From: a virus
Strand: one strand, 5' to 3'
Virus record (IMG/VR): IMGVR_UViG_3300023192_003818
Location: 1 to 64,000 of that record
DNA length: 64,000 nt
Under the pieces are notes generated by a model, which was not told where the DNA came from, ran no database searches, and saw nothing but the letters and a program-made list of their open reading frames with translations. Position numbers and translations under genes: made by a program. Shown here in pieces: positions 2,170-51,037 of the stretch (positions are counted from its first letter, which is position 1; each line of letters starts with the position of its first letter).

Positions 2170-2481
2170 TTATACATGAGAACTTAACCCACTACCTCCT
2201 GCAGGGTCTAAATCTCCATCATCAAACATATCTTCTCCTTCATGTTCATCTCTCTGTAGATCTTCTATCCAATCTTCATTATCTTCTAACCAATAACTAA
2301 ATGAATCATTATATTCATAAAAAGGGTCAATGAATTCTTCAACTATAGTTTTAATATTTTCAGGTTTTGATATTCCTATCCCTTTTAAGATTTCAATTAC
2401 ATTTTTTGGAATTGTAATTGTAATTTGAAGAGATTCCTCTTCATTAATAAATTTGTTAAATTCTTCTTGATATTGTTCCAT
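2170..2481 (-). CDS. Leader-tagged acidic protein, putative internal head protein
   Basis: A 103-residue acidic protein opening MEQYQEEFNKFINEEES. The first 14 residues match the pattern of T4 capsid-targeting sequences (MKTYQEFIAE), and INE|E fits the (I/L)xE cleavage rule of the T4 prohead protease gp21. The rest (ITITIPKNVIEILKGIGI, then Asp/Glu-rich) has no family I recognise. The start overlaps the stop of the next leader-tagged gene (TAATG), so the two are coupled. Packaging into the head is inferred from the leader and from the neighbours, which carry the same signal. Confidence 0.65.
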   Translation of the reverse strand: MEQYQEEFNKFINEEESLQITITIPKNVIEILKGIGISKPENIKTIVEEFIDPFYEYNDSFSYWLEDNEDWIEDLQRDEHEGEDMFDDGDLDPAGGSGLSSHV

Positions 2482-3086
2482 TATATTTTATCTACTAAAA
2501 AGTTCATCATTATTTTTATTTGATATTTATAAAATCCTTCTTGTAACCAATCCCCACCTTGAATTTGAATTAAATCTCTTAATAATTTAAAGTCTCTTAT
2601 ATTGGCCAAATCATCCATATTATTTAATAGTTCTGCTTTATCTCCTGCTGATTTCCATTCTCCATAGTTTTCTTCTTCAGAATCATTATAATCTTCTGTA
2701 ATATTATAGTTAATAGCATGTTTTAATTTCATTATTACTTCATCCGGATGAAGAACAACTTCATCTCCCTCTAAGAAATTTTCCCATTCTTCAGTGTAAA
2801 ATAAAATAGCATTAGAACCATCATCAAAATCTAACTCATGATAGCCACTTTCTTTTAACTCTACTCTATCAATCTTTACTTCTCTTTCACTTCCACCACC
2901 ATGGTAATAATAGCTACCAAGGCCATCAGATATATCTGTAATTATTACTGTTTGATCTTTTAATAAATCAGTTATAGTAGTTACATCATTTTTTATTTCA
3001 TCATCAAAGCTTACACCTCCTGTGTAGTCTTGGGTTTCATAAAGTTTGCCTTCGCTAATATATTTTTTTAAATTGAAGTTTTTCAT
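2481..3086 (-). CDS. Leader-tagged acidic protein, putative internal head protein
   Basis: 201 residues opening MKNFNLKKYISEGKLYE. This is the clearest example of the second leader type (NFNLKKYISEG), with ISE|G as a candidate prohead-protease site. The mature part is acidic (many Asp/Glu pairs), with a HYGGG-type loop near residue 62 and a helical C-terminus; no known domain seen. It starts 2 bases after the stop of the upstream gene and ends by overlapping the downstream start, inside a tightly packed run of minus-strand genes. The leader recurs at 6416-7210, 21972-22082 and 46647-47105. Confidence 0.7.
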   Translation of the reverse strand: MKNFNLKKYISEGKLYETQDYTGGVSFDDEIKNDVTTITDLLKDQTVIITDISDGLGSYYYHGGGSEREVKIDRVELKESGYHELDFDDGSNAILFYTEEWENFLEGDEVVLHPDEVIMKLKHAINYNITEDYNDSEEENYGEWKSAGDKAELLNNMDDLANIRDFKLLRDLIQIQGGDWLQEGFYKYQIKIMMNFLVDKI

Positions 3087-3088
3087 AA

Positions 3089-3400
3089 TTATATTATCTT
3101 TTTAAGCTTCATTAATTTTGTATCATTCTCTCCTAAATCAAGCATTCCACGAGAATATAATCTTCTTGCTTCTTTAATAAGTTTTATAAATTCCTTTTTA
3201 GGTAAAACTCCTAAACTTTCAATTAAGGGGATTTTACTATTTATTAAATTTTTAAGATTATTAGATAATATCGGTTCTATCCATTCCTCTTTTAAGATTG
3301 GATAATTTTTTTCACATTTATTACATCCACATTTACACATATTAAACAAATAATTTTTTAAAATCTCCATAAATTGAACTTTGGTTAACTCCAAAGTCAC
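3089..3400 (-). CDS. Cys-rich small protein, 5' end probably frameshifted
   Basis: An open frame of 103 codons whose first ATG-type codon is GTG; a better internal start would be the ATG at 3370 (MEILKNYLFNMCKCGCNKCE). The CKCGCNKC segment is a likely metal-binding knuckle, followed by a helical region. Directly upstream, in another frame, a leader starting MKNFNLEKIKDSESLLSDFG begins at 3449 with an ATGA overlap to the previous gene. A one-base shift around 3375-3400 would join leader and body into one leader-tagged protein like its neighbours. Either a real frameshift, a programmed one, or a sequence error. Confidence 0.6.
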   Translation of the reverse strand: MTLELTKVQFMEILKNYLFNMCKCGCNKCEKNYPILKEEWIEPILSNNLKNLINSKIPLIESLGVLPKKEFIKLIKEARRLYSRGMLDLGENDTKLMKLKKII

Positions 3401-3449
3401 TTAATAAAGATTCACTATCTTTTATTTTTTCTAGATTAAAGTTTTTCAT
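3342..3449 (-). CDS. 35-residue leader ORF upstream of 3089-3400
   Basis: ATG at 3449 overlaps the TGA of the upstream gene (ATGA), the usual junction in this cassette. The product starts MKNFNLEKIKDSESLLSDFG, the same leader type as 2481-3086, and ends at TAA 3342. The body gene continues in the +1 frame. Best explained as the true N-terminus of the 3089-3400 protein separated by a single-base indel. Confidence 0.55.
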   Translation of the reverse strand: MKNFNLEKIKDSESLLSDFGVNQSSIYGDFKKLFV

Positions 3450-3907
3450 AATTCTATATCATCTATTTCGGAGTTGGTAGAAATATCTAAAGGTTCTTCA
3501 CTTCCATCTATATCTGCTCCCCCTTCACTTGAATTGGTTTCTGATTTTCCCCCATACTGTAAAATACGAGCAATGGAAACAATTGCTCTTTGTTCTTCAT
3601 CTAAATTGAGTAAAAAATATTTTTTACCTTCAACTTGAGCTATCCAACTATTTTCATTATAAGTTAATATAAAACTTTGACCATTTAATAAATTAATTCT
3701 AAATGTTGTGGGTTTAGGTGCTACCCAATCTATACTTTCCAAAAATTTATCAAAATCAGTAGTTAATAAATCAACAATAACTACTTTAAGTTCTGGAAAA
3801 TTTGTTAATTCATCATAAGCTAAAGAAGCATCATCAACTTTGAACTTATCAGCCCAAACATTTAATACTAATCTTTTTATTTTATCTTTTAAATCTGCTT
3901 TAGTCAT
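3446..3907 (-). CDS. Putative structural/internal head protein, unknown
   Basis: 153 residues opening MTKADLKDKIKRLVLNVWAD, an amphipathic helix, then a compact alpha/beta body (FRINLLNGQSFILTY) and a disordered, acidic, Ser-rich tail from about residue 125. No enzyme motif. It overlaps its neighbours on both sides by ATGA junctions, so it is part of the same translation unit as the leader-tagged proteins. I cannot assign a family; a virion-associated role is inferred only from position. Confidence 0.6.
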   Translation of the reverse strand: MTKADLKDKIKRLVLNVWADKFKVDDASLAYDELTNFPELKVVIVDLLTTDFDKFLESIDWVAPKPTTFRINLLNGQSFILTYNENSWIAQVEGKKYFLLNLDEEQRAIVSIARILQYGGKSETNSSEGGADIDGSEEPLDISTNSEIDDIEL

Positions 3908-6408
3908 TTTTTATTAAGAATGTAGGCCTTTAAATCTTCACTTATTATATAAATATCATCTTGCAATTGTTCTAAATCTTCATGAGATAAAGCAACAACT
4001 AATTTTTTGTAAGGGTTTTGATATAAACCTTTACCTTTATATTCTTTATTAAATATATAAACTCCTGGAATTATATTTTGACCATTATGTTGGACATAAC
4101 TATCTGACCTAAATCTTTTAGGGTATTTGGGGGAATTTTCTTTACCTAATTTACCTGCTAGATTTGAGAATTTGTCTTCCTTTAAATTGCTTATCATTTC
4201 ATCTAAAGATAAAGTAATACCTGCTTTTTTGGCTGCTTGATTAAGTGGTTTTTTTAATTTAGGTTTATCTTTATAGTTTGCTCTTTTATACTGGTCTAAA
4301 ATATTTAAATATTGTTTTCTATCAGAATCTTCATCTTCTTTAATATTTCCCCTTTTTTTTAATTCTCCTTTCATTATAGAAGATCTCAGTTTTGCAGAAC
4401 GACCATAACCTTTATAATCTGTTGAATCTATTTTACTTATTTCTCCCTTTAATTCTTCATCTGACATATTTTTTATTTCATCTCCATCAGAAGTTTTGTT
4501 TTTTAATCCCCCATGGAAGGATGTTAAATCATATATTCCAGATTCTTTTAAATTTACAGACTTTTTAAGATTTTCTCTCCACTTATTACCATAAAGCTTC
4601 TTCATTAAACTTACTAACACTTTAGTATTTATTTTCTCTCCATCTGCTGAATATAACTTATCATTTTTTTGAATTATATGACCATCTTTTTTAATATAGT
4701 CTTGTAATTGTTGTTGTAATTTAGTTAAATTTTTATTATCTTCTTCATTAACTTTTTTACCTTTTTCTGAATCTGTGATTTTTTTTAACATTTCTTCAGC
4801 AGTATCATTTATATTACCATACATTGGAGAATTTGGTAGTGAAACATTTATAATATCTCCAAAATTTTGCATTTCATAACTTCCTGCTCCACCTTCTTTA
4901 TCAGGTAAATCTAAACTAAAAATATTTTTCTCTAAAGAGTCTTTATTTAAAGTAACTTTAACATTTAAATATTTAGACATTGCTTGAGCTAAAGTATTAG
5001 CAGGATTAATTGTAGATTTTAGATCTTCATCATTAACTTTTTTACCTTTTTCTAAATCTGTGATTTTTTTTAACATTTCTTCAGCAGAATCATTTATATT
5101 ACCATACATTGGAGAATTTGGTAGTGAAATATTTATAATATCTCCAAAATTTTGCATTTCATAACTTCCTGCTCCACCTTCTTCATCAGGTAAATCTAAA
5201 CTAAAAATATTTTTCTCTAAAGAGTCTTTATTTAAAGTAACTTTAACATTTAAATGTTTAGACATTGCTTGAGCTAAAGTATTAGCAGGATTAATTGTAG
5301 ATTTTAGATCTTCATCAATAGTTTCATCTACTTCTATTCTATCTTTATAAAAATCTCTTTGAGCTTTTCCTTCTCTATTAAAAGCATCTGCAATTAATTC
5401 TTTTAATTTTTCAAATTCTTTAGGAGATAATTCTATTGGTGTATAATTACCATCTTTAAAATAACTGGATATTCCTACATATCTTGTATCTAATTTGTCT
5501 CTAAATCCTAATTTTGATAATTCTGATGTGTCAATTCTATCTTGAGATGTTATTATTCTAACAATAAAATTTTCATTTTCTTTTTTGAATTGAATAGTAC
5601 TATGATCACTATAATTTATATTCTTATAGTCTCTATAACCCTCTTTTTCTTCTCCCCATTCTTCATTCAATTCCTTAACAGGTTCAGGGTATTTCTTTTG
5701 TAATTGTTTTTTGGGGGAGTGTGTAGATGATGTTTCATCCTCATTCATATTATATCCTTTTTTATTGGATAATTTTAAACCCCTTTTTACAGCATATTTT
5801 ATAGCATCATCAGGTGAATCAAACGTCATATCAATTTGAGCTGAACCATCAGGTTTTTCTAAAATATAGTGATGTTTTTTATCACCCTCACGTTTTCCTG
5901 CTCTTGAAATCATTACTTCATCTCCTTTATTTCCCATATAACCTTCATTAGTATCTTCTTCAATTTGTTCACCAATTGGAATATAACCTAATTTAGTATC
6001 ATATTTTCCAATTTTTTCTTCTAATTTAAATATTAAATTTGAAATAGATGTTAAGGCTCTTTGCCAAGTAATATCAGAAGTTTTTGCTAATAATTCCTCA
6101 ATTTTTTCAGAAAGAGCTTCAGTATGAGTTCCAACCTCATCCCAAATATATGCTTCTCTATCTTTAACATTATCTTCTTCTGTTAAAGGGGGGTTTTGTA
6201 ATACTTTTCTTACTAGTTCTTTAAGATTATTTTTATTCATCTCTTCTATTTTTTTTCTACCTTGTTTTGTAGCAATTCCATACATAACCTTCTCAGCATC
6301 AGCTCCATATTTCTTAACTAGAGCACTTTTATTTTGTTTAAGACCTTGAATAGCACGTTCCCGTGCCTCTACTTCATTATCACTAAGTTTACTTTCATTA
6401 AGCATCAT
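3904..6408 (-). CDS. 834-residue modular head-cassette protein with a 95-residue tandem repeat
   Basis: Large hydrophilic protein. Residues about 8-50 (SDNEVEARERAIQGLKQ, then KYGADAEKVMYGIATKQG) form a helix found in phage virion proteins; NLKELVRKVLQ at 61-71 followed by LTEED resembles a leader/cleavage segment placed internally. A HHYILEKPDGSAQIDMTF module follows near 179. Residues about 366-460 and 461-555 are near-identical copies (see the repeat). The C-terminal part (600-834) is basic with no recognised fold; its last 80 residues, ending YIISEDLKAYILNKK, look like a separate module. Several LxE/IxE sites lie between modules. Overlaps 3446-3907 by ATGA. Probably a packaged polyprotein; the function of each module is unknown. 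Confidence 0.7.
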   Translation of the reverse strand: MMLNESKLSDNEVEARERAIQGLKQNKSALVKKYGADAEKVMYGIATKQGRKKIEEMNKNNLKELVRKVLQNPPLTEEDNVKDREAYIWDEVGTHTEALSEKIEELLAKTSDITWQRALTSISNLIFKLEEKIGKYDTKLGYIPIGEQIEEDTNEGYMGNKGDEVMISRAGKREGDKKHHYILEKPDGSAQIDMTFDSPDDAIKYAVKRGLKLSNKKGYNMNEDETSSTHSPKKQLQKKYPEPVKELNEEWGEEKEGYRDYKNINYSDHSTIQFKKENENFIVRIITSQDRIDTSELSKLGFRDKLDTRYVGISSYFKDGNYTPIELSPKEFEKLKELIADAFNREGKAQRDFYKDRIEVDETIDEDLKSTINPANTLAQAMSKHLNVKVTLNKDSLEKNIFSLDLPDEEGGAGSYEMQNFGDIINISLPNSPMYGNINDSAEEMLKKITDLEKGKKVNDEDLKSTINPANTLAQAMSKYLNVKVTLNKDSLEKNIFSLDLPDKEGGAGSYEMQNFGDIINVSLPNSPMYGNINDTAEEMLKKITDSEKGKKVNEEDNKNLTKLQQQLQDYIKKDGHIIQKNDKLYSADGEKINTKVLVSLMKKLYGNKWRENLKKSVNLKESGIYDLTSFHGGLKNKTSDGDEIKNMSDEELKGEISKIDSTDYKGYGRSAKLRSSIMKGELKKRGNIKEDEDSDRKQYLNILDQYKRANYKDKPKLKKPLNQAAKKAGITLSLDEMISNLKEDKFSNLAGKLGKENSPKYPKRFRSDSYVQHNGQNIIPGVYIFNKEYKGKGLYQNPYKKLVVALSHEDLEQLQDDIYIISEDLKAYILNKK
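4747..5316 (-). repeat. Tandem 285-bp (95-codon) duplication inside 3904-6408
   Basis: Two in-frame copies, 4747-5031 and 5032-5316, differ at only a handful of bases (for example Glu/Lys in LPDEE versus LPDKE, Ile/Val in DIINIS versus DIINVS). Each copy encodes DLKSTINPANTLAQAMSK through EKGKKVN. High identity points to a recent duplication. Confidence 0.92.
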
Positions 6409-6415
6409 TTAGTAT

Positions 6416-7210
6416 TTATTCATCCCCAAAAGGAGTATAACCTTCTGAATCTCTTCTATATTCACTAGGATTTCTTAATTTATTTCCCATTCTATTATAA
6501 AAATATTCTCCATCCCAATATTCATAACTATCTGAAGGAGAGTAATATTCTTTTTCTAAATCAGAAATATCAATTCTTTCATATTCTTCATCTAAATCCC
6601 TTAACCCATCCTCTGAAATTTTATCAAATAAAGAACCTTGCCCCATTTCTCTTCTATTTTTAGCATCAATAAAAGATATAGTACTATTTCCTTTTGTAAC
6701 TATTTCTCCTTTATGAAGTCTATCCATTTCAGATTTAGTAAGATTAAAAGTACCATCCTCTGTTGAAACAACAATAGGATCGTCATCTTCATTTTCTTTT
6801 AAAGATTCATAATTAATTTCTCCTTGGTCATCATAATCATCATAAGTATCAAAGTCTTCTTCATATTCTCGTTCTTGAGTATCTCCATCATTATTAAAAA
6901 CTCCTTCAAATCTAACACTAATATCTAAGGAATCAAATAATTGAGATAAATCTCCTTCTAATGCATCATAATTTTCCATTTTTTCAGGGAAAAACCAATA
7001 ATTTTCTATTGAATTCCATTCTCCAAAAAACGCTGAATCCTCTAGTGCACCACTAATTAAATCATTATCTGATTGGGTACTTCCAATTACAATTAATCCT
7101 TGTTCCTCTTCATCAAATCCTTCATCTAAAGATTCATAATTTATTTTACCTTTTTCATTGTAATGAATTCTACCTTCACTAATAAATTTTTTTATATTAA
7201 AGTCTTTCAT
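6416..7210 (-). CDS. Leader-tagged acidic protein, putative internal head protein
   Basis: 264 residues opening MKDFNIKKFISEGRIHY, the NFN-type leader with ISE|G. After the leader the sequence repeats the start of a similar module (GKINYESLDE near residue 21 and GEINYESLKE near 130), suggesting an internal duplication. Strongly acidic, ending in a Tyr/Asp-rich segment. No catalytic motif. Six bases separate it from its neighbours on either side. Like T4 internal proteins it is small, charged and leader-tagged; packaging is inferred. Confidence 0.7.
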   Translation of the reverse strand: MKDFNIKKFISEGRIHYNEKGKINYESLDEGFDEEEQGLIVIGSTQSDNDLISGALEDSAFFGEWNSIENYWFFPEKMENYDALEGDLSQLFDSLDISVRFEGVFNNDGDTQEREYEEDFDTYDDYDDQGEINYESLKENEDDDPIVVSTEDGTFNLTKSEMDRLHKGEIVTKGNSTISFIDAKNRREMGQGSLFDKISEDGLRDLDEEYERIDISDLEKEYYSPSDSYEYWDGEYFYNRMGNKLRNPSEYRRDSEGYTPFGDE

Positions 7211-7216
7211 AATTTT

Positions 7217-7927
7217 TTAATATTTACTTCTTCTTAATCCACTATGTTCATCTTCTTCTTCACTATCACCAATATCTTTCCATTTAGGTTTTCTTTTTAA
7301 TTTCACATCTGAATCAGGAATACCACCTTTTGTGTAATCTTTAAACACATCATATTCTTTTGCAAAAAAATCACCATCTACATCATCTTCAGCTACTTGA
7401 TTACCTCCTACAATATGAGTACGAGTAAACATTGTAATAGTATTACCTATTTGTTTTGCTAATTTATCATCTGCAATCTGAAGTGCATTATCATAAGCCA
7501 ATTTTAAAGCATCTTGAATTTGTTTTTCATCTTTTGTTAAACCTTCTTCAGGTGAGAATTGTATTTCTTCATCTCCACCTTCATCAGGAATATCATCTAT
7601 AACCGGTTCATCCACAACATCTTCTCCATCTCCTAAGTCAATATCATCTAAATTGATATCTTCAACATCATCCTTTTCATCTTCTTCATCCTTTTTCTTA
7701 TCTTTTTCATTAAGATTAAATAATATTTCTTCTCTTATTTTAAATTTTAATTCAGAAATTTTAATTTTAGTAGGTACTGATTCTTCAATTTCATTATCAG
7801 AATTAGAATCAACTACTTTATATCTTGGTTTAGTAGATTTTAATTCAGTTAGTAATTTGCTTTTTTTTTCATCATATTTAAATAAGACTTTGCTTTTTAA
7901 ATAGGCTTTATAATCGAAATTATCCAT
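7217..7927 (-). CDS. Leader-like acidic protein (degenerate leader)
   Basis: 236 residues opening MDNFDYKAYLKSKVLFKYDE, aligned with the NFN leader but without the ISE|G site. Residues about 85-135 are an extreme Asp/Glu run (for example EEDEKDDVEDINLDD), followed by a helical part and a basic RRSKY tail. Highly acidic low-complexity segments of this kind occur in phage scaffold/core proteins. An AATATTTATAA motif lies 11 bases upstream of the ATG, so this gene probably starts a transcript. Confidence 0.6.
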   Translation of the reverse strand: MDNFDYKAYLKSKVLFKYDEKKSKLLTELKSTKPRYKVVDSNSDNEIEESVPTKIKISELKFKIREEILFNLNEKDKKKDEEDEKDDVEDINLDDIDLGDGEDVVDEPVIDDIPDEGGDEEIQFSPEEGLTKDEKQIQDALKLAYDNALQIADDKLAKQIGNTITMFTRTHIVGGNQVAEDDVDGDFFAKEYDVFKDYTKGGIPDSDVKLKRKPKWKDIGDSEEEDEHSGLRRSKY

Positions 7928-7937
7928 GTGTTTTTAG

Positions 7938-7947
7938 TTATAAATAT
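7938..7947 (-). promoter_or_regulatory. Late-type promoter motif (AATATTTATAA)
   Basis: Minus strand AATATTTATAA, 11 bases before the start of 7217-7927. Confidence 0.5.
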
Positions 7948-8018
7948 TATTTTTTCTTCTAGATTTATTTTTAACAATATTAGGTGTTATTTATGTTTTT
8001 TTTCTTACTTTAATTTTA

Positions 8019-8525
8019 TTAACTTACATCCATACTATCATCCCAAGTTGCTTCTATTTCTAAAGAGGTTAACTTATCAACAATGTCATTTAAAAGAGAA
8101 ATACCATTAAAATCTGATATTTTTGGTAATTTTAGGTTAATTCCTAAATAATTAAGTAAACTATTTGTATCATCACCCCCAATTTTAATAGTTTCACCAC
8201 CTTTAACTAATATAGTTTTATAAAATCTTCCTCTATCTGTATAATTAATATCTATTTTTTCAATAGATTTATAACCACTTTCAGTAAGTGAACCTAATCC
8301 ATGGTTTTGTAACCCAAAATAAAAACTGGTTGCTGTTGGAAATTCTTGCTGAAAAATAGACATTCTTAATCCTGATTTTTTTGATGGTGATTCTAAATAA
8401 TTCTTTAACCAATTCCATATTTTAAAGGAATCTTGAGGAGAAATATTAGCATCATTATTATTTTCTTCAAATTCTCTAAGTCTTTGCTTGTATGACCAAG
8501 TCTTTATATTAAAATTATCTGGCAT
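8019..8525 (-). CDS. Unknown protein with partial NFNIK leader
   Basis: 168 residues opening MPDNFNIKTWSYKQRLREFEE. NFNIK matches the leader core, but the second half of the leader differs and no clear (I/L)xE|G follows. The body has a predicted alpha/beta character (KTILVKGGETIKIGG) with no family I recognise. It overlaps the GAF-like gene upstream by 11 bases. Likely the same cassette, function unknown. Confidence 0.55.
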   Translation of the reverse strand: MPDNFNIKTWSYKQRLREFEENNNDANISPQDSFKIWNWLKNYLESPSKKSGLRMSIFQQEFPTATSFYFGLQNHGLGSLTESGYKSIEKIDINYTDRGRFYKTILVKGGETIKIGGDDTNSLLNYLGINLKLPKISDFNGISLLNDIVDKLTSLEIEATWDDSMDVS

Positions 8526-9159
8526 TTTTTTTAGGTTTTATTTTTTCATCATATAAATAAGTACCAATAAGTGTACCTAATGAAATTGCTTTATCACTTA
8601 ACTCACTAATTTGTTCTTCATTTAATTTTTTAGTTTTATGAACATAATCAATGCCAAAAGTTCCTATAAAATCTCCTTCTATAGTTTTAAGAGCAAAGAT
8701 ATAAGAAGATTTAGTTTTTAAACCTTCAGCAAATGTTTTTAACCCAAATGTTGGGGAATTTTTTGAAGTAAAAGATGGAATTATTATTTGATTATTTTTA
8801 TATAATTCCATTAAAGGTTTGTTAAATAATGAAACTGGTATTGATGTAAAGGTACTCATTTTACTTTCAACTCCCAATTTTATATGTTCAAACATTACTG
8901 AAAATTTAGTAATTGCTTTCCCGGTTGGGAAAAAATGACCACCATTGTGAAATTGTGATAACCAAACTCTGTCTGATTTAAAGTCCTCTTGTATTTTTTC
9001 TAGCATTTCATCCACAACCATGTTGGATTTAATTATGCAATATATAGGGTCTTCTTTTGGTTTTTTAGATTCCAAGTAAGATTTATACCTAATATTAATC
9101 ATAGGTCCTATTATTGCAGTAATAAGAACCAATATTATAGCTATGTCCAATTCTAACAC
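8515..9159 (-). CDS. Membrane-anchored GAF-like domain protein
   Basis: 214 residues with one N-terminal transmembrane helix (residues about 5-22, IAIILVLITAIIGPM) and a cytoplasmic alpha/beta domain containing RVWLSQFHNGG and IEGDFIGTFGIDY, a pattern I associate with GAF-type sensor folds in phage genomes. The start is a GTG overlapping the TAG of the upstream gene (TAGTG). An AATATTTATAA motif about 40 bases upstream, inside the previous gene, can drive it. Ligand unknown; the topology suggests signalling or membrane association during infection. Confidence 0.6.
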   Translation of the reverse strand: MLELDIAIILVLITAIIGPMINIRYKSYLESKKPKEDPIYCIIKSNMVVDEMLEKIQEDFKSDRVWLSQFHNGGHFFPTGKAITKFSVMFEHIKLGVESKMSTFTSIPVSLFNKPLMELYKNNQIIIPSFTSKNSPTFGLKTFAEGLKTKSSYIFALKTIEGDFIGTFGIDYVHKTKKLNEEQISELSDKAISLGTLIGTYLYDEKIKPKKNAR

Positions 9160-9731
9160 TATTTTTTAAGTTTTAACAAATATTTTATTACTTCTTGTTT
9201 ATAAATATTGACCCTTTCTTCGTCTAATTGCCCTACCCATTTTTCCATTTGGCCTCCTTCAGATATAAATGACTCATTATCTTCTCCTTTTTTCTCTTCA
9301 ATCCATAATTTAAATTCTTTTATTTTATTATTAATTTCATCATTGTGAATCTTAATTTCATATTCTTTCCACTTTCCTTCTTTTTTAATTTCTATTTCCA
9401 TATCAATAACACAATTGTAACACTTTTTATGAATTCTATAAAAATCTTTATCATTTCTATTTTTCATAATTTTGGTACATTTAGGACAAAATAGTGGAAG
9501 TTTATATAATTTTTTAGCATTATCTAATTTAGTAACATTTTGTTTTATTCCATCTTTAATCGTCCATTCCCTATCATCCTCTACCCAAATATCTCCTTCT
9601 TTATAAATTTCACGTTTTTTAGAATACCCTATAACTGTTTTAGTTTTATCTCCATATTTACCTTGTATGAGATTTCTTAAACGTTGTACATCGTTTCTAT
9701 TAAACTGTTTCTTTAAAACTGATTCTTTCAT
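9159..9731 (-). CDS. Conserved phage zinc-binding protein
   Basis: 190 residues opening MKESVLKKQFNRNDVQRLRN, a sequence start I recognise from marine T4-like phages. A four-Cys zinc site (FCPKCTKIM near 82 and KKCYNCVIDME near 103) is intact. C-terminally FISEGGQMEK repeats the ISE|G pattern, so processing there is possible. The gene overlaps the 992-residue gene upstream by 32 bases and ends in TAG. Function unknown; a structural zinc fold near a virion cassette. Confidence 0.65.
   Translation of the reverse strand: MKESVLKKQFNRNDVQRLRNLIQGKYGDKTKTVIGYSKKREIYKEGDIWVEDDREWTIKDGIKQNVTKLDNAKKLYKLPLFCPKCTKIMKNRNDKDFYRIHKKCYNCVIDMEIEIKKEGKWKEYEIKIHNDEINNKIKEFKLWIEEKKGEDNESFISEGGQMEKWVGQLDEERVNIYKQEVIKYLLKLKK
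9199..9208 (-). promoter_or_regulatory. Late-type promoter motif inside a gene end
   Basis: Minus strand AATATTTATAA, 40 bases before the GTG start of 8515-9159. Confidence 0.35.
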
Positions 9732-12678
9732 TAACTATATTTTTTAGGTCTGATATGGTTTGTTGTGTATTTTTGTAAAAAATTCCTGTTCCTCCTGCTT
9801 TATTCCAAGTATCTATTGTTCTTTGTTTATCATCAACAAGGATATCATATTTGGTTAATTTGGGTTTTATTGTATGTTTTTCTTTTGAGAATTTGAAATT
9901 AATTTTAGGTATGGAAGGGAAGACGTCTCCTACATGATTTTTAACCCATAATCTTTTACCTAATTTTGATTGGTCTTTTAATGATGGAGAAGTTAAAATT
10001 TCATAGTCATAATCTTTTGCAAAATCAACTAATTCTTTTGCTCCATCCATTACAGGAATTCCTACCCAAAATTTTACTTTATTTTTTTCATCTATAAAAT
10101 CCCAAAATTCATTTCTTCCATATTTATCTTCAAAGTCTCCAGGTGACATCCCTGATAGGTCTCTAAAACGTTGATCAAAATCTGCTAAAACTCCATCTTG
10201 GTCTAAATAAATTTTATATTCTTGTTCTTTTGCAAGTTCTTTTATAAATTCTACTAAACCAAAAGGGTCATTTTCATTTATTTGTTCTATATTTTTAACT
10301 AGTACTATTTCATCCCCCTCTAGGTCCATTATCCAACCCTTAGGTAAATTCTTTTTTATATAAGCTTTATATAAGTTAAATCTTCTAGTATCATCCTTAA
10401 AATTTTTGGTTGGATCAATCAATATAAATTCCACATCTTTATTTTCAGATATAAATTCTTCTATAATACTTGTTATAGTAGACATTACTCTAAATATTTC
10501 TCCTTTATTTATAGTTCTTATAAAAGTATCATCTTTATCAAAATCCTCTAAAGTAAAAAACTCAATACTAGCTCTCTCATCCGCTATATGAATTTTTACT
10601 TCATATTGTGTATCTTTATCAGTTACAAATTTATAAGATTTAACAAAATATGAATCTTCGTCTTGGAAATAAGCATATGACTTAGCAGAACCATCTCCTA
10701 TTTCATTAATTTCTTTTAATGGGGAATTAAAAATTTGATCTTCTTTATAACCTAATAATTGGCCTATTCTATATATGTCTTTTTGTAAATTTTCTACATT
10801 TTCAGCATTATAATGACTAACATCTTCTAAATTACAAGGCTCGCATGCTGGGAGATAACCTCCATATTTTTCTACTAATGCTAATAATTCTTTTGCTTGT
10901 TCTATAAAACCCTCCCTATAAATTATAATTCCATTATTAGGACTTGAAGGAGCTTTTAAGGTTTTTATATCACTATATTTAGGTAAATCTTTAATAAAAT
11001 CAGGTTCAATATACCATGCCGCCCACATCACATTTCTTTTTTTATCTAATAAAGTTTGAAATGCATCATCATCCTCATATGCTTCTGAAGGATCAATTTC
11101 TTCGTTCAATTTATTACCTGTTTGTTTATCAGTCCAACTTCTAAACATAATATTTCCTTTCTCATATGCTTCACTTTCAAGTTTAGTAAGATATGCGTCT
11201 GTATTTATATCAGTAGTGTGAGATGCTTGATTTAAACGGTCTTCTACGTTTTGATACACATGAATAAGCTCATGACAGTAACTACGTAATATATCTTTGG
11301 GATGGCGGTTAAAAGTGTATAAGACAATAATATTAGTATTGGGGTCATAATGAGCAGTTTTACCTAATATACCTTTACTATTTTTTACATCATCTTCAAT
11401 AAATTGAACTTTTGGGTAAGGCTTTAAATTTATACCTTTTTCTTCCATGTGTTTAACAATAGAGGTAAGGTAAGGTTTTAATTCATTCTCTATGTTTGGG
11501 ATTTGTTCTTGTAGAGATTCTTTATTATCAATCTTATCTACAGATAAAATATAATCTTTAATATTTTCTATATACCCTTTAGGTGTAATAATAACTTCTT
11601 CATCTTCATCTTGAGTTTGGGGATTATTTGGAATATTATAGTCTCTCCTCCAATAATCATTAGGTAATATTTTGTAATTATTAGATAATTTATCCCCATC
11701 TAGTACTATTTGAACTTCATTATCATCGTATTTAAAATTTTTGTTTCTTGTAGTTGAAACCCCTGTTGTTTCTTCTCCATGAATGTTAATATAAGAACCT
11801 TTTAATTTATTTTGACTTAAAATATTCTTTAAATTTGGAAGAGAGGTATAATGATAAATTATTCCTACTTGTTTACCTTCTTCCAAACCTACCTTTCCCA
11901 ACTTTGAATAATATTGAGGGTCTTCATAAATATTATCCATTGCTATTTCAAAAGCAATATCTATGTTATCAGTATGTTCTAATTCTTCTTGTGAACCTAT
12001 TGTAATTTGATTTATTATATCTCTTAAATCAACCTTATGCATGTCTGCTAAATCTTCAAGAGTTGAACTTTTGGCAATTCCTCCTGAAATAATATTCTCA
12101 TGAAGGGTTGAAGATAAAATTCCGTAAACTTCTTGTTGTTCTTCATCATTTAATTCATTAGGTAAAAATGGTATTAATTTTTCTAAGGATACTTCAGCGG
12201 CATTACGAGCAGCAGTTCCACTTACTCCTTCTTGAGTAACAATTGTTCTTAAATCTATGTTAGGATATTTATTTATTGAAGTTGTTCTTGAGGAAATATC
12301 TTTAAAATCTTCCTCATTTCCTTCCCTGGCTCCTATTACCCATAATATTTTTTTATCAGGGTTGTTTTTAGAATAACGATAAATATCTCGAATTGGTTCT
12401 ACACTTGAAGGAACAAATTTAACTTTATTAGGTAAATATTTGTTATAAATTTCCCATATTAAAAGTGATTGGTCTTGAGTAACTCCTTCTCTTTCTTTTT
12501 TACCAATAAAAACTATAAATTCATCTATTTCAGGGTTTTCTTTTAAAGCTTGTTTAATTACTTCAAAATGTCCTCTTGTTGCAGGTTTAAATCCCCCACC
12601 ATATACAGCAATTATTTTTGTAGGTTCTTGATCTTCAGGTATAAGATCTTTTATCATATGTTTAACTAAAAAATTCAT
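9700..12678 (-). CDS. Five-module polyvalent protein: nucleotidyltransferase, ART-like, zincin, unknown, HAD
   Basis: 992 residues. Residues 22-190: HIGH-superfamily nucleotidyltransferase (YGGGFKPATRGHFE 26-39, GVSGTAARNA 151-160). About 272-385: ADP-ribosyltransferase/RNA 2'-phosphotransferase-like domain (HYTSLPNLKNIL 276-287, VSTTRN 307-312, QIVLDGDKLS). About 400-510: zincin metalloprotease with HELIH at 469-473 and a possible third ligand in ESEAYE (501-506). About 550-795: uncharacterised modules. 820-970: HAD phosphatase/5'-nucleotidase (DQDGVLADF 826-834, ILVDD near 946). (I/L)xE sites lie near the joints: LEE|G 265-268, LQE 389-391, LNE|E 524-527, INE|N 800-803. Such fusions fit polyvalent proteins delivered with phage DNA; packaging is inferred. 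Confidence 0.75.
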   Translation of the reverse strand: MNFLVKHMIKDLIPEDQEPTKIIAVYGGGFKPATRGHFEVIKQALKENPEIDEFIVFIGKKEREGVTQDQSLLIWEIYNKYLPNKVKFVPSSVEPIRDIYRYSKNNPDKKILWVIGAREGNEEDFKDISSRTTSINKYPNIDLRTIVTQEGVSGTAARNAAEVSLEKLIPFLPNELNDEEQQEVYGILSSTLHENIISGGIAKSSTLEDLADMHKVDLRDIINQITIGSQEELEHTDNIDIAFEIAMDNIYEDPQYYSKLGKVGLEEGKQVGIIYHYTSLPNLKNILSQNKLKGSYINIHGEETTGVSTTRNKNFKYDDNEVQIVLDGDKLSNNYKILPNDYWRRDYNIPNNPQTQDEDEEVIITPKGYIENIKDYILSVDKIDNKESLQEQIPNIENELKPYLTSIVKHMEEKGINLKPYPKVQFIEDDVKNSKGILGKTAHYDPNTNIIVLYTFNRHPKDILRSYCHELIHVYQNVEDRLNQASHTTDINTDAYLTKLESEAYEKGNIMFRSWTDKQTGNKLNEEIDPSEAYEDDDAFQTLLDKKRNVMWAAWYIEPDFIKDLPKYSDIKTLKAPSSPNNGIIIYREGFIEQAKELLALVEKYGGYLPACEPCNLEDVSHYNAENVENLQKDIYRIGQLLGYKEDQIFNSPLKEINEIGDGSAKSYAYFQDEDSYFVKSYKFVTDKDTQYEVKIHIADERASIEFFTLEDFDKDDTFIRTINKGEIFRVMSTITSIIEEFISENKDVEFILIDPTKNFKDDTRRFNLYKAYIKKNLPKGWIMDLEGDEIVLVKNIEQINENDPFGLVEFIKELAKEQEYKIYLDQDGVLADFDQRFRDLSGMSPGDFEDKYGRNEFWDFIDEKNKVKFWVGIPVMDGAKELVDFAKDYDYEILTSPSLKDQSKLGKRLWVKNHVGDVFPSIPKINFKFSKEKHTIKPKLTKYDILVDDKQRTIDTWNKAGGTGIFYKNTQQTISDLKNIVNERISFKETV

Positions 12679-12684
12679 TTTATT

Positions 12685-13098
12685 TTAAGAACATTGACAA
12701 GTTCCGTAAGGATTTTCATCACTTATATTTCTTGGTTCATCACAACTTTTACACCATGAAGAATCATATTCTTCATCTTCTTGTTCATTTACAGGTTGTT
12801 CAGACATTCCATAATTTTTCAAAAAATTAAAAAAAGATGAGTATTTATCTAAATATTCAGATATAAATCTTAATTCTTTATACTTATCATCAGAAAGAGT
12901 ATTTAATAAAATTAAAGGATTCATTTCGTCTTTCAAATCTACATACCCTTCCATTATTTCTTCTAAATTTTCTAAATTATGAAGTATCCCTAAAGCTTTA
13001 TCCCAAACTGTTTCTAGTTGATTTTTTAAATCCTGTGAGTTATCTAAATCTCTATCTTCTTTTAAATATTCTTGAAATGCTTTTTTATAATCTTCCAT
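12685..13098 (-). CDS. Leader-tagged protein with C-terminal zinc knuckle
   Basis: 137 residues opening MEDYKKAFQEYLKEDRDLD, the DY-type leader (compare T4 MKTYQEFIAE), with LKE|D as the possible cleavage point. A helical middle follows and a C-terminal CKSCDEPRN...CQCS segment forms a probable four-Cys zinc site. It lies between the kinase and the polyvalent protein with gaps of only 3-6 bases. Putative internal head protein. Confidence 0.6.
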   Translation of the reverse strand: MEDYKKAFQEYLKEDRDLDNSQDLKNQLETVWDKALGILHNLENLEEIMEGYVDLKDEMNPLILLNTLSDDKYKELRFISEYLDKYSSFFNFLKNYGMSEQPVNEQEDEEYDSSWCKSCDEPRNISDENPYGTCQCS

Positions 13099-13101
13099 TT
13101 T

Positions 13102-13902
13102 TTAATTTAAAAATTGTTTTATTTTATTTTGTGCTTCTTCTTTCGAAACTGAATTATCTACTATATTTTGTACTACTTTATTATTTAATAAAGATTTAAC
13201 TGATAGAGTTAATTGTTCTTTTGATTTATTTGACCTTGCCTGTGCTTTATCATCTTTTGGTATTGTGTTTTTAGCTTTGAAAGGGTCTAAATATTGTTTT
13301 GTTAAAGATTCTAAATCTCTTAATTCCTCATCTTCTAAAGTATTAGCAACACTTATAAAATTATTCCCAAATAATTCTCTATAAGGATTATAATTTTGTG
13401 TTACACTATTCCAAGTACGTAATACTAAAGAAGGAGCAATGCTTCTATCTTCACCACCACTTTTTTCAAATCTATCCTGATTTTGAATTAAAGAACGTTC
13501 TAAACTGGTATAAACATATAACATAAATACCTCATATTCTGCTTCTTCTAACTTATTTTTTAATAATGATGTTTGCTTAAATGAAGCAGCAGTACCATCT
13601 AATACAAATGATTCTTTGTTTAAAATAGAGTTTGGTATTTGTTGTTTTTTTAATTGTTGAGTAGCCTGTACCATCGCTTGGGCAGATTTACTTCTATCAT
13701 CAGCACTTGCTCTTTTTAAATCTAAAGAAACATTAGCTTGTTTTAACAATTTGATATAATTATCATCAAGATTAAAGACTTTTAATCCACCTAAATCCAA
13801 ACCTTTTAAAACAAATCCTTTACCTGAGCCTGGAGCTCCTGCAAGGATTATTGCTTTAGGGGATTGTAATACTTCTTTAAGAATTTCTATTAAACTTATC
13901 AC
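13102..13902 (-). CDS. P-loop kinase / zeta-toxin-like ATPase
   Basis: 266 residues. Walker A GAPGSGKG at 22-29, preceded by the helix VISLIEILKEVLQ that resembles the internal leader of the 834-residue protein. FVLDGTAAS near 108 fits the second strand of AAA-type small kinases and zeta toxins. The open frame begins with GTG at 13902, but ATGAA lies five bases upstream in another frame: one extra G would give MKVISLIEIL, so the start may carry a one-base deletion. Substrate unknown; position suggests a packaged or early enzyme. Confidence 0.65.
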   Translation of the reverse strand: MISLIEILKEVLQSPKAIILAGAPGSGKGFVLKGLDLGGLKVFNLDDNYIKLLKQANVSLDLKRASADDRSKSAQAMVQATQQLKKQQIPNSILNKESFVLDGTAASFKQTSLLKNKLEEAEYEVFMLYVYTSLERSLIQNQDRFEKSGGEDRSIAPSLVLRTWNSVTQNYNPYRELFGNNFISVANTLEDEELRDLESLTKQYLDPFKAKNTIPKDDKAQARSNKSKEQLTLSVKSLLNNKVVQNIVDNSVSKEEAQNKIKQFLN

Positions 13903-22097: not shown

Positions 22098-25000
22098 TTA
22101 TTTTATTACTCCTTTACCTATTAAATTGGTAATTATTTCGGAAGCATTTTCTTGTAATGAAATTACAGGGAATTCTGGAAATAAAAGTCCTGATGTTGAT
22201 GATTCTTTTGGGGGATTTGAATAAGGATAAGTTAATCCTAATAATATACTATTGGCATTATCAATATATCTTCTTACTAAAAAGAAATCTTTATTTATAG
22301 ATGTTGGTACTTCCTTGTCTAACTCTATTTTTAATCTACCTTTTCCATCACTTTCAATATTTTGTTGTGGTGGAGTTATTTTTTTAATTTTATAAGTATA
22401 ATTTTCATTATTACCAAATCTTATTTCATCTCCTTCTTCAAAATTTATTGGGTAAATAATAGTATCAAATCTTGTACCTTCAGGTTCTTCTCCTCCAGGA
22501 TGGTATTCTGAAGGTCCTACTTCATAATTTAATTCTCCTTGATAATGAGAACCTCCGTATGCTTCATTTATATTAGATGAAGACATTATTAATATTCTTT
22601 GATCTAAAATATCATTTCCACCTCCTGCTGAACCTGTAAATACCCAAAATGGGGCTGAACCTGTATTATCTCCTGATAATAAATGGGATTTAGAACCAAA
22701 GTTTGTAATTTTGGTTGGAAGTTTTTTTCCCTCATATCCTTCAGGGTAAAATACACTTTGAATTTTTCCTTTACTTTTATTTATTTCCCCATTTATTTCC
22801 CATTTAATAATATCATTTCTATTAAATATGTAATTTCCTGAATTAGCTTTTATACCCCATTCTAAAGCTACGATATCTCCTTTATCTTCTATACCTCCAT
22901 CTCCAGATTTATATAATCCTTTTTGTTTTAAGAAAGTTTTAATAGCACGATTTAATAATACTATTTCTATTTGAGAACTTGAATTTAAACCTATTGCATG
23001 AGTTGAATTTTTACTTAACCTTTTATTAAAATGGGTAAATTTATTAACAGAATTGATCTTAATAAATCTTACAATATCATTATTTTTTCCTATAACAGAA
23101 CCTACATTAAAACTTTTCCCTCCTTTTTTATGAACTATTAAAAATATATCTTCTAATTCAAAAGGAATATTATTGCTTCCACTTAATAAACTTAATTTTA
23201 CATTTAATTCTGCTCCATTACTATTATATAACCAGTTTGTAGTAAAAGAAGTTTCTAAAAATATATGTTGAGTATCTCCTAAATTATCACCAATTCCAGG
23301 GTCTCCACCAGGGAAAGTAATAATACCTAATGAATAAGGATTAGTAGCATAACTTTTAACTTCTATTTCTTCAGTAGGGTCTAAAACTTTATATATTGTC
23401 TTTGAAGGGAGACCATCTAATGAAGAAGAACCTAGAGCTGAAAAACTATAATCATCAAAAGCATTCTCATCATCATTATCATATAGACTTATACGACCTG
23501 ACCCAGTTAAAGGGATATCCCTTGAATAACCAATACTTGAAGTTTGAGTATATAATATAGGGGTTATTAATTTTCCTACTAAATGTGTTGGGTATAAACT
23601 ATTTAATTCTTTTAATTCTTTACTTCCTGAATTAATAGAAATACTTGCTAACCCTCCTTCTGGGAAAGATTGGATTAAAGTTGTTAATCCTGTTCCTTGT
23701 AAACTAGGTGGAATTGCATTTCCTTCTTCATCTATTAAATAAGTTAAATTTATATTAACAGTATCATTAAGGTTAGGATAGACATCTCTAATTGAATCAA
23801 AATATCCAAAGAAAGCTGTTCTTAATTCTATAGTAGGTAATTTACCATAAGTTCCTGTATCTTTGGGAGTCCAAACATTTAATCTTTCACTTGTTGATTT
23901 TGAACCAATATATCTAGAAGTAATAATACTTAAAGAAGAATAATTTGAATCAGGTACTTTTGCGGGGGTTGCAGTTCCTTCAAATATAGATGCTGAATTA
24001 ATAGGATTATAGATATCTGTTGTATAATCTACTTCCATTAACCAAGTATTATCTCTTGAATTTACATAATTATTTAATAATGGTTGGCAATCTAAAGCTA
24101 AATTAAAAGGTAAAACTCCTGACCCAAAGAAGGTTGGGAGTATAACTGCTGAACTTGTTGGTTCATTAAAATTTCCATATTCATAAGGTTCATCAAGTGG
24201 GGATAAAACTGAATCATTAGGATGAATACTCATAGTATATTCACTAATAGTTAAACCCCCATTAAGACTTTTATTAACATGGATTGCCATTCTAAAGGCA
24301 TCATCATAATCAAAATTTCCTTGGAAAGAACCAGATATTGTAACTCTATCTTTTGAACTACTATCAGGAACAATAAAATCCTCTGATAGTATAATATCAC
24401 CCTCCTCTATATTAGAATCATTTTTATTTCCTTGATATACTCTTAAAGAACCTGTAAGCCTAAAAGTTTCTTCAGTACCTACCTTAATAGATTGAGTTAT
24501 ATATAATTTAGGATAATCATTATCTTTTTGGAAACCAACCTTAATACTTGAAGTTATATTAGTAAATTCATATTGTACATAATACATACTTTCAGTAAGA
24601 TTAGAGTGAGGAGTTGTTCCTGATATAGGACTATCAGTAAAATTGTAATAACCTGAACTACTTATGATTTGGGAGGATAAGGTATCTGATGAAGTAATTT
24701 CGTAATCTCCAGCAGATGAAGTATTTTTTAATATTACTCTAATGTCAGCCGTTCCTTCATTATTTCCACTTGTTAAATTAAGATTCATCAATGCTGGTTG
24801 CAATAGAGTTCCTTGAGATTGGATAAAAGAATCCCCACTATTGTTTCCACTCTCATCATTATACTCATAAGCACATTGCCAATTATCTATTATATATTCA
24901 AAATCAGTATCAGTTTGAACTTCCATTCTAAAGTAGAAAGGACGAGAATCATTTCCTAATCTTGAAACAAACCATGCTTTGTTAAGAATATAATAAAAAG

Positions 25001-44692: not shown

Positions 44693-44725
44693 ATTAAATA
44701 ATAAATGAATTTAAATTTTAATGTT

Positions 44726-44947
44726 ATGAAAAATTCAACAACAAAATTATGTGTATATGAATCACCCCAAGGTTGGTACTTTGCAGAATCATTCTGGGAC
44801 TACTGGGCAGAAGAATTTGCACCTGAAGTAGAGCATGAATTAACAGACTGTATTTACTATTCTACAAAAAAGTTAGCTTTACTTGCTTTAAAATTATTTA
44901 AGCAACAAAATATAAGTCTTATCGACGAATCAGACTTACCTTTTTAA
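44726..44947 (+). CDS. Small early-type protein with MKNSTTK start (2)
   Basis: 73 residues from the second ATG: MKNSTTKLCVYESPQGWYFA, with FWDYWAEEF and a STKKLALLALKLFK helix. The KKLALLALK segment is repeated in the remnant at 45433 (KKQALLALKIF), so this gene has a broken paralogue. Followed by an intrinsic terminator. Function unknown. Confidence 0.6.
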   Translation: MKNSTTKLCVYESPQGWYFAESFWDYWAEEFAPEVEHELTDCIYYSTKKLALLALKLFKQQNISLIDESDLPF

Positions 44948-44974: not shown

Positions 44975-45008
44975 AATTAAACAATAAATGAATTTAAATT
45001 TTAATGTT

Positions 45009-45224
45009 ATGAAAAATTCAACAACAAAATTTAGTGTATTGAAAACAATCGATGAACCCATTAAAGAAGGTGATTGGTATTTATACAACTCTAATAATGA
45101 TTCTAAAAAAACTAAATGGGTATTACTTAAAGCTAAAAAAGTACTTAATGATGGGTTATATGAATATATTGATACCCATGTACATATTTGGTGTAAAAAA
45201 ATACTAACAACTAATAAATCTTAA
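45009..45224 (+). CDS. Small early-type protein with MKNSTTK start (3)
   Basis: 71 residues from the second ATG: MKNSTTKFSVLKTIDEPIKE, then GDWYLYNSNNDSKKTKW and THVHIWCKK. It restarts after the terminator, so the repeated block probably includes its own promoter or is read by leak-through. Function unknown. Confidence 0.55.
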   Translation: MKNSTTKFSVLKTIDEPIKEGDWYLYNSNNDSKKTKWVLLKAKKVLNDGLYEYIDTHVHIWCKKILTTNKS

Positions 45225-46646: not shown

Positions 46647-47105
46647 TTAAAAATAATAATCATCTGATACTATATCAATATGGTCTCTTATCATAGCATC
46701 TAAATATAAATTAACATCACTAGCAGACATTGCTTTTATCATAGATGTAATAATATAATCATCATCATCAATAGCATCTCTAAGTCTATCTAATTTATCC
46801 CATGCTTTTTCATCTAATGTTTCACCCATTATTTTCTTTTGCTTAACTGCAGGTCCTGATCCACAACTTTCTTCAACATCTAACGGAAAAGTGTCTGGAT
46901 CGAGTAAAATATTGGGTTGATTGCGAATAACACCACCTCCCACTATTTCTTCAATAACATTAGCTAATTCATCACCACCTATATTGCCGTTTCTGTATTG
47001 GTCTAAGTGCATTTTTATTTCATCTGCATTAACTTCTACAAATTCATCTTCTTCATTTAATAAACTGCCTTCTGTTAAATACTTTCTTAAATCGAAATTG
47101 TTCAT
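46647..47105 (-). CDS. Leader-tagged acidic protein, outlying copy
   Basis: 152 residues from ATG 47105: MNNFDLRKYLTEGSLLNEED. A complete NFN-type leader with LTE|G, 33 kb from the main cassette. The body is acidic and helical, with EEIVGGGVIRNQPNILLDPD and a C-terminal SASDVNLYLDAMIRDHIDIV. A CGTATATTTATATG element lies about 40 bases upstream. Probably another internal head protein. Longer upstream starts were rejected because they lack the leader. Confidence 0.65.
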   Translation of the reverse strand: MNNFDLRKYLTEGSLLNEEDEFVEVNADEIKMHLDQYRNGNIGGDELANVIEEIVGGGVIRNQPNILLDPDTFPLDVEESCGSGPAVKQKKIMGETLDEKAWDKLDRLRDAIDDDDYIITSMIKAMSASDVNLYLDAMIRDHIDIVSDDYYF

Positions 47106-50426: not shown

Positions 50427-50654
50427 TTATATATGTTCTAAGCAGGTAGGACAAAGACCTACATCTTCAACTTCTCCTGTTATTTCATCACCACAGCAAG
50501 TGTATTCTAATTCTTCTACTTCTTTAAATAAGCGACGCTTAGCCGTAGGTCCAAATTCATTTTCTTCATACTTAATAGCTTCTTCTCCTACTAAATATTC
50601 TCCATTGTCTGCAATAGTGTATTTTTCTTTTTCTTTCATAACAAAGTGCATCAT
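50427..50654 (-). CDS. Small protein with zinc site and GPTAKRRLFKE motif
   Basis: 75 residues, MMHFVMKEKEKYTIADNGEY. FGPTAKRRLFKEVEE is shared with the gene upstream through a 32-base identical stretch. The C-terminus (YTCCGDEITGEVEDVGLCPT plus CLEHI) is a four-Cys zinc ribbon. Starts by overlapping the upstream stop (ATGATG). Function unknown. Confidence 0.6.
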   Translation of the reverse strand: MMHFVMKEKEKYTIADNGEYLVGEEAIKYEENEFGPTAKRRLFKEVEELEYTCCGDEITGEVEDVGLCPTCLEHI

Positions 50655-50986
50655 TCATCAGAATATTTCATAACTAATTCGTCATTTAATCTTATAATTG
50701 GTTCTTGAAAACTATCTAAATATCCATCTAAATAAGCACCGAATAATACCCTTATTGTTTGAATTGATGTTTCTTTTCCAAATCTATCTTCTAATTCTTG
50801 ATAACTTATATCTAAATTTTTAGGGAAAAAATCAGTTACGATAGGCATAAGTTTAGCTTTTATTGATGGATCTCCTGCTTTATCATCAAATAGACTTTTC
50901 ATATTTACATATTTACCTACAATTGATTTAGGAATACCCCTACCTGACTCTTCTTCTTTAAATAAGCGACGCTTAGCCGTAGGTCC
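50521..50986 (-). repeat. 32-base direct repeat encoding GPTAKRRLFKE
   Basis: Positions 50521-50552 and 50955-50986 are identical and in the same reading frame, encoding GPTAKRRLFKE in two otherwise different proteins. The CGACGC codons are G/C-rich for this genome. Identity of synonymous positions indicates recent copying rather than protein-level convergence. Confidence 0.85.
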
Positions 50987-51037
50987 TACTTTGTTTTCAT
51001 TTATATATTTATTGAATTCTTTTTCGTAATCTTCCAT
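50651..51037 (-). CDS. Leader-tagged protein with GPTAKRRLFKE motif
   Basis: 128 residues opening MEDYEKEFNKYINENKVGPT. A DY-type leader with INE|N is followed at once by GPTAKRRLFKE. The body (SIVGKYVNMKSLFDDKAGDP and YQELEDRFGKETSIQTIRVL) is helical and unplaced. Putative packaged protein outside the main cassette; coupled to 50427-50654. Confidence 0.62.
   Translation of the reverse strand: MEDYEKEFNKYINENKVGPTAKRRLFKEEESGRGIPKSIVGKYVNMKSLFDDKAGDPSIKAKLMPIVTDFFPKNLDISYQELEDRFGKETSIQTIRVLFGAYLDGYLDSFQEPIIRLNDELVMKYSDE

Follow-up and report, generated by a model that had tools for sequence, protein, structure and literature searches.

What is the role of the short N-terminal leaders that recur on otherwise unrelated proteins in the gene cassette at positions 2170-13098 of this DNA? 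The window, by which we mean the whole stretch of 64,000 nucleotides analysed, makes up the left-hand part of a virus record of 106,601 bp, itself a fragment, from an uncultured, T4-like phage whose nearest isolate infects Flavobacterium. A first-pass annotation had described two leader types on unrelated bodies, and all six leaders that it quoted are indeed found at the N-termini of open reading frames. The range it had given holds for four of them, type 1 with MKNFNLKKYISEG (2481-3086, minus) and MKDFNIKKFISEG (6416-7210, minus) and type 2 with MEQYQEEFNKFINEE (2170-2481) and MEDYKKAFQEYLKED (12685-13098), but not for type-1 MNNFDLRKYLTEG (46647-47105, minus) and type-2 MEDYEKEFNKYINEN (50651-51037). 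The search for more leaders elsewhere in the genome, which it had proposed, turned up a fourth type-1 gene at 102179-102487 of the record, past the window; the last three genes named lie beyond 2170-13098, and the record of 106.6 kb holds four type-1 and three type-2 leader genes. Judging from their sequences, the leaders most likely represent diversified, clade-specific propeptides of the capsid-targeting (CTS) kind known from T4. The genes concerned are as follows, with | marking the predicted cut in a leader:

2170..2481, minus: 103-aa protein with type-2 leader MEQYQEEFNKFINE|EE; its body has no relative among the fetched loci
2481..3086, minus: 201-aa protein with type-1 leader MKNFNLKKYISE|GKLYE|T, from the sequence; its match to other phages' proteins is confined to the N-terminal stretch
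3089..3400, minus: Cys-rich CKCGCNKCE protein; relatives start MCNCGCNTCETKGPLLTE|GKV, probably another leader class
3446..3907, minus: conserved cassette protein with N-terminus MTKADLKDKIKRLV; homologue of the C-terminal part of gp079 of Flavobacterium phage immuto
3904..6408, minus: 834-aa cassette protein, a probable polyprotein by its duplicated segment and standalone homologue
6416..7210, minus: 264-aa protein with type-1 leader MKDFNIKKFISE|GRIHYNE, from the sequence; in locus L137 its C-terminal part forms a separate protein with a type-5 leader
7217..7927, minus: 236-aa protein with degenerate type-1 leader MDNFDYKAYLKS...LLTE; relatives have MDNFDYQAYLKSGKI and MDNFNYQAYIKSGRI
8019..8525, minus: 168-aa protein with divergent type-1 leader MPDNFNIKTW; compare immuto gp069, MENNFDIHKW
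9159..9731, minus: conserved cassette protein; homologue of immuto gp086, 44% identity
9700..12678, minus: 992-aa multidomain protein with leader MNFLVKHMIKDLIPE|D, from sequence and homologues
12685..13098, minus: 137-aa protein with type-2 leader MEDYKKAFQEYLKE|D, from the sequence
13102..13902, minus: zeta-toxin/AAA-like kinase with leader MISLIEILKEV
46647..47105, minus: type-1 leader protein, MNNFDLRKYLTE|GSLLNE|E, outside 2170-13098
50651..51037, minus: type-2 leader protein, MEDYEKEFNKYINE|N, outside 2170-13098

Searching phage sequences with the leaders, as suggested at first pass, proved productive for type 1. A degenerate DNA pattern matches at least 119 viral stretches in IMG/VR, where a control with identical codons in permuted order gave 0 matches; within the record, the strict motif occurs four times near N-termini, never inside proteins, and on average 0.0 times in shuffled N-termini. 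The two controls rule out a chance origin of these leaders. Among 84,980 prokaryote genomes only five type-1 stretches were found, every one on MAG contigs, and among 50,697 phage records type 1 occurs in immuto alone, also when the leaders, which are very short queries, were searched by tblastn. Type 2 is known from this species alone, the sole outside match in a scan for it, L208, being a near-identical strain; its support is local.

Clustering of 147 proteins among the matches listed gave about 99 unrelated bodies, and in an alignment of 112 leader proteins, with a mean column identity of 4%, the consensus is the leader: it starts MDNFDLKKYLAExKL and then dissolves. Common to the family is the core hydrophobic-xx-[FY][LI]xE. 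Conserved as well, although absent from the search pattern, are position 14 (K or R) and position 15 (L), together with a further [LI]xE near 18 (LAEGKLLKE) or 24 (LVENKLTTNSKLLxE). Where leader residues are invariant, synonymous third codon positions vary, which argues for selection on the peptide and rules out conservation of the N-terminus at the level of translation. One might still suppose that the shared N-termini are unrelated to heads and represent a translation-start element, or an address for tail or host-protein handling, given an AT-rich upstream region, shared first codons and a few genes beside a tail tube gene. Yet the residues are kept while the codons vary, cut sites also turn up at internal seams, well away from any start codon, and the prohead protease has a site at both of its own ends (see below), which together make such a reading extremely improbable.

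The genomic surroundings of the leader genes are best seen in immuto (NC_055915), the closest isolate, although its identity to the window phage in the baseplate wedge is only about 44%. Its cassette is syntenic with the window, holds homologues of the proteins at 3446-3907, 9159-9731 and 9700-12678, and is followed immediately downstream by the genes for terminase, Gp20-type portal, S77 protease (gp070; PF03420, 8.9e-35), scaffold and Gp23-type capsid protein. Like the window phage it has type-1 leaders, on gp003, gp076, gp077 and gp092 and, in divergent form, on gp069; these proteins are annotated as hypothetical, gp077 as an adenosyltransferase, and we found no mention of leaders. Scored as hydrophobic-xx-hydrophobic-[LIVM]xE, the leader core is present at 9 of 21 cassette N-termini of the complete immuto genome; of the 188 N-termini that belong neither to the cassette nor to the head module, 6 have it (p=6e-7). 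In immuto and its relatives, leader genes flank those for terminase (TerL), portal, S77 (gp21-like) protease, gp22-like scaffold and gp23-like capsid protein. The gp21-like protease anticipated at first pass is present in 14 of 18 related records, namely immuto and 13 others, where it accompanies gp20- and gp23-like head proteins, as expected of a T4-type system; neither the window's own record nor a near-identical 41-kb contig, both of them fragments, contains one. Terminase, portal and capsid genes, and with them the whole head module, are likewise absent from the record. As the FAD-protein gene at the window's end lies a few kb from terminase in relatives, the window must have been cut just before the head module, which accounts for the missing S77 gene; an exact search for contigs extending the record's left end returned none.

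In several loci (L091, L139, L163, L182, L186 and L194), type-1 genes are found directly after the tail tube gene, outside the head module, a location that one would hardly expect for head cargo.

Some type-1 genes sit exactly between the protease and scaffold genes. As a general rule, this arrangement fails in records picked without regard to leaders, in which no type-1 gene lies between the two; there, type 1 is sometimes absent and the cassette is filled by other classes. The position, like the many bodies without known domains, would nevertheless suit a reading of the leader proteins as minor parts of the prohead core or scaffold, comparable to T4 gp67/gp68: the leader would bind the core, but the proteins would serve assembly and be degraded and cleared instead of being delivered. 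Here the distribution of cut sites is informative. The clade's S77 protease has an [LIV]xE|[GSA] close to the N-terminus and another site, almost invariant, close to the C-terminus; in immuto these read LLTE|S and SLNE|G. The Glu of the C-terminal site is conserved in at least 97% of 31 sequences. [LI]xE as such is a short, frequent motif. Relative to the expectation from composition, the density of [LI]xE[GANSD] amounts to 7.09x in the first 75 residues of the capsid protein, the propeptide, 2.29x in the scaffold (gp22) and 1.1x in the mature capsid protein. Leader regions reach nine times the expectation, whereas the bodies behind them show 1.11x, as do control (tail) proteins with 1.16x. 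Site density thus appears to separate front-trimmed cargo, with one or two cuts, from chopped-up scaffold, and since the bodies have no excess of sites, they look like cargo, which disfavours a degraded scaffold. In addition, the bodies are almost wholly replaced between phages, unlike essential core proteins, and some of them are enzymes (a zeta-toxin-like kinase, a nucleotidase). We therefore regard a role as core parts as improbable and favour targeting of cargo into the head.

That T-even phages bear CTS leaders, and exchange them on variable internal proteins, is well established. In the T4 CTS, residues 4 and 7 serve targeting and residues 8 and 10 cutting (PMC9026906). The leaders described here resemble those of T4 IPI, IPII, IPIII and Alt (PMC9026906, PMC5694885) in being N-terminal propeptides of 10-20 residues on unrelated bodies, in their hydrophobic targeting positions, in the [LI]xE, here presumably cut by an S77 protease as in T4, and in their variable cargo. 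Class-4 leaders such as MIKLIDILNEA even hold the T4 register (hydrophobic 4, 7 and 8; Glu 10), as no other class does. Type 1, in contrast, has F4, Y/F9 and E12, a register of 4, 9, 12 instead of 4, 7, 10, usually with a further site near 18 or 24; and compared with the three IPs and Alt of T4, this clade has tens of cargo families and several interchangeable leader classes. The giant phages phiKZ and SPN3US (PMC5694885, PMC10052503) possess a related prohead protease, and their diverged gp53/gp54 have an identical 15-residue N-terminus with two sites (PMC5694885, PMC10052503), but their propeptides differ in that several exceed 100 residues, cuts are of the AxE/SxE type, and no movable short tag is found on many bodies.

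By analogy with T4, the leaders would thus bind the prohead core and be removed by the S77 protease. The short N-terminal leader would be read by the prohead core of an immuto-like myovirus, that is, by the gp22-like scaffold or a partner, and would draw its protein into the assembling head; there, the S77 (gp21-like) protease would cut after [LI]xE and free the body within the capsid, from which it would presumably be ejected with the DNA. Packaging, cleavage, ejection and an effector function of the leader proteins are what we infer from this scheme. The first-pass proposal of prohead-targeting leaders cut after [LI]xE finds strong support in the comparison of phages, through gene context, shared sites, leader swaps and bodies without an excess of sites, while the protease to go with it has to be sought outside the fragment and packaging and cleavage are still to be read as predictions.

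The swaps concern orthologous bodies: one that has type 1 in a given phage has type 3, 4 or 5 in a second phage, and the junction falls at the predicted cut. In L104 and L169, one body follows two leaders, as MDNFDLKKYLAEGKLFEE|DFKNPILDKYLKLKK and MKELYRFRQFLTEG|DFKNPILDKYLKLKK, with DFKNPILDK right after the cut in both. Orthologues of the window's kinase (13102-13902) in L115, L185 and L195 have type 1 in place of MISLIEILKEV, and immuto gp095 (MKKSELVKLIKEEL) has type 1 instead in L096. Every leader class, moreover, fits the core hydrophobic-xx-[FYLI][LI]xE. Several distinct classes do occur together in one phage, and the first-pass annotation had suggested that its two classes might address different compartments or assembly times; exchange on orthologous bodies and the common core speak against this, with type 2 seen swapped on no body, and we consider such a division of labour very improbable. 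Leader residue 9 (F or Y) tracks the protease clade (10:1 versus 0:12, p=1e-5), as expected if the leaders of one phage fit one receptor or core, though shared ancestry alone could produce the match. The classes would then be variants of a single address, able to replace one another, and a new body would be recruited by gaining a leader.

How do the large cassette proteins fit into this picture? The 992-aa protein joins a leader, several enzyme-like domains and unassigned parts in one chain. Its assigned domains are:

12097..12621, minus: nucleotidyltransferase (NMNAT-like), residues 20-194; PF01467 with E 0.0025, below the Pfam cut-off; homologous to a NadR-like protein of immuto
11878..12096, minus: DUF5661, residues 195-267; PF18905, 8.8e-10; standalone with its own leader MKKSQLRQIIKEAL in immuto gp080
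11506..11877, minus: ADP-ribosyltransferase (ART)-like domain, tentative, residues 268-391; preceded by LEEG|KQVG; Tox-ART-HYD1
11101..11505, minus: zincin-like region with HELIH motif, residues 392-526; sub-threshold M76/M91 hits and homologues
9703..10236, minus: 5'(3')-deoxyribonucleotidase (NT5C/HAD), residues 815-992; phrog_2643, 2e-25; standalone with its own leader in relatives, and preceded within the 992-aa protein by the leader-like LVEFIKE

The ART label rests on Tox-ART-HYD1 matches in 15 of 50 relatives (best 1.1e-6), because an AlphaFold model of the domain (pLDDT 79) found no Foldseek match in the PDB and a profile search of the PDB gave a weak DarT hit only; the modelled fold is possibly unusual. 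The family to which this domain belongs (KQVGxLYHYT...SFTRNK...DGDKLSNKY...EER; L280-L359) is present in at least 80 viral loci and nearly absent from isolated phages.

Several of these domains occur alone behind their own leaders in relatives. With seams defined from homologue alignments, [LI]xE is found at 7 of 7 seams of the 992-aa protein (residues 15, 194, 267, 391, 526, 656/659 and 802/810/814), a result equalled by 14 of 991 circular shifts (p about 0.014, for this single protein) and by random placement at 0.0002. Of 65 pairs from all fetched proteins, 31 have an internal [LI]xE at the point where the leader of the standalone homologue ends; 16 would be expected. Directly before the KQVG of the ART-like domain, [LIVMF]xE-[GAS] is present in 18 of 18 internal and 57 of 58 standalone copies; E-[GAS]-KQVG was one of the two search patterns for these copies, and the hydrophobic P3 lies outside it. 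In L102, another cassette protein is interrupted by an ART-like domain precisely at its LKE|ADDP site; its following seam, KLKDIIREIIQE|DESLRKWF, closely resembles the whole leader of a standalone gene elsewhere, MIKLTDIILEMIKE|DESLHKWF (L240/L241). Similarly, the duplicated segment of the 834-aa protein starts IDE|DLKSTINPAN, at the place where the leader of a standalone homologue (L217:3272-4441) ends LNE|D. The duplication in this protein (3904-6408, minus) is a near-perfect tandem one of about 90 residues (DLKSTINPANTLAQAMSK...), with [IV]xE bounding each copy.

The nearest precedent for the seam cut sites is provided by the polyvalent proteins (PMC5512222), large multi-enzyme proteins of portal-terminase phages which are predicted to be packaged and injected, and which have zincin and ADP-ribosyltransferase-like parts, comparable to the zincin-like region and the tentative ART-like domain of the 992-aa protein. 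Two or more unrelated enzymatic domains, by which polyvalent proteins are recognised, are present here in the NMNAT-like, NT5C, DUF5661 and zincin-like parts, the zincin resting on its HELIH motif with sub-threshold Pfam matches only. The multidomain proteins could accordingly be polyvalent proteins packaged whole or cut by their own zincin, the seam [LI]xE being unused by the prohead protease; their domain mix and HELIH region are in keeping with this, release by embedded peptidases having been proposed for polyvalent proteins (PMC5512222). In our case, however, the seams have sites of the separate prohead protease and, unlike in polyvalent proteins, individual domains exist in relatives as separate proteins with leaders. 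The agreement of seam sites with standalone leader ends, the hydrophobic P3 and Glu P1 kept in every internal ART-like copy, and the seam in L102 that keeps a whole leader further render this alternative rather unlikely. We prefer to view the large cassette proteins as former single cargos strung together, with cut sites kept, which would probably be cut apart in the prohead. Whether cargos fuse in this manner, to be separated again by the prohead protease, is on the present sequences about an even call. We are similarly divided on the broader proposal that leader and protease site form a movable unit, such that any gene becomes cargo by acquiring a leader and fused cargos keep their sites at the seams. 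If true, the maturation protease would make separate effectors in the capsid from one chain, a polyprotein strategy for injected proteins, and its role would widen from the trimming of propeptides to the release of effectors.

In the open-paper literature we found no earlier description of these leaders. As far as searched, a clade-specific leader family with a spacing unlike T4 is new, as are about a hundred tagged proteins of no known kind, interchangeable leader classes and cut sites at seams. Pfam and PHROG scans of the 112 leader proteins matched a family for only a handful, and the tag therefore points to many uncharacterised candidates for host takeover or counter-defence. It offers a way to list proteins that these phages would probably inject into bacteria; if this is right, a tag of 12 residues reads out the injected proteome for a large group of aquatic phages, most of them uncultured, and the leaders could serve as packaging tags outside T4.

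Several further features of the record deserve mention. The adjacent genes at 50427-50654 and 50651-51037 (minus) have in common an internal 17-residue segment around GPTAKRRLFKE, 82% identical, which in 50651-51037 directly follows the type-2 leader. Two adjacent small genes on the plus strand, 44705-44947 and 44988-45224, have the same N-terminus, MNLNFNVMKNSTTK, and different bodies; lying on the strand opposite to the head cassette and having no [LI]xE site, they represent a partial duplication or some other shared N-terminal element. A protein of 2,553 aa is encoded at 22098-29759 (minus), in the tail or baseplate region, and a glycosyltransferase-like gene cluster, as in immuto, at 59238-66000. 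At about 72-74 kb and 80-89 kb of the record (L003, L004), there appear to be, by resemblance only, a phage-encoded GroEL/GroES pair and FolE-, QueE-, QueD- and QueC-like genes of 7-deazaguanine synthesis; the latter point to modified DNA, and immuto is annotated with QueC/D/E/F and DpdA.
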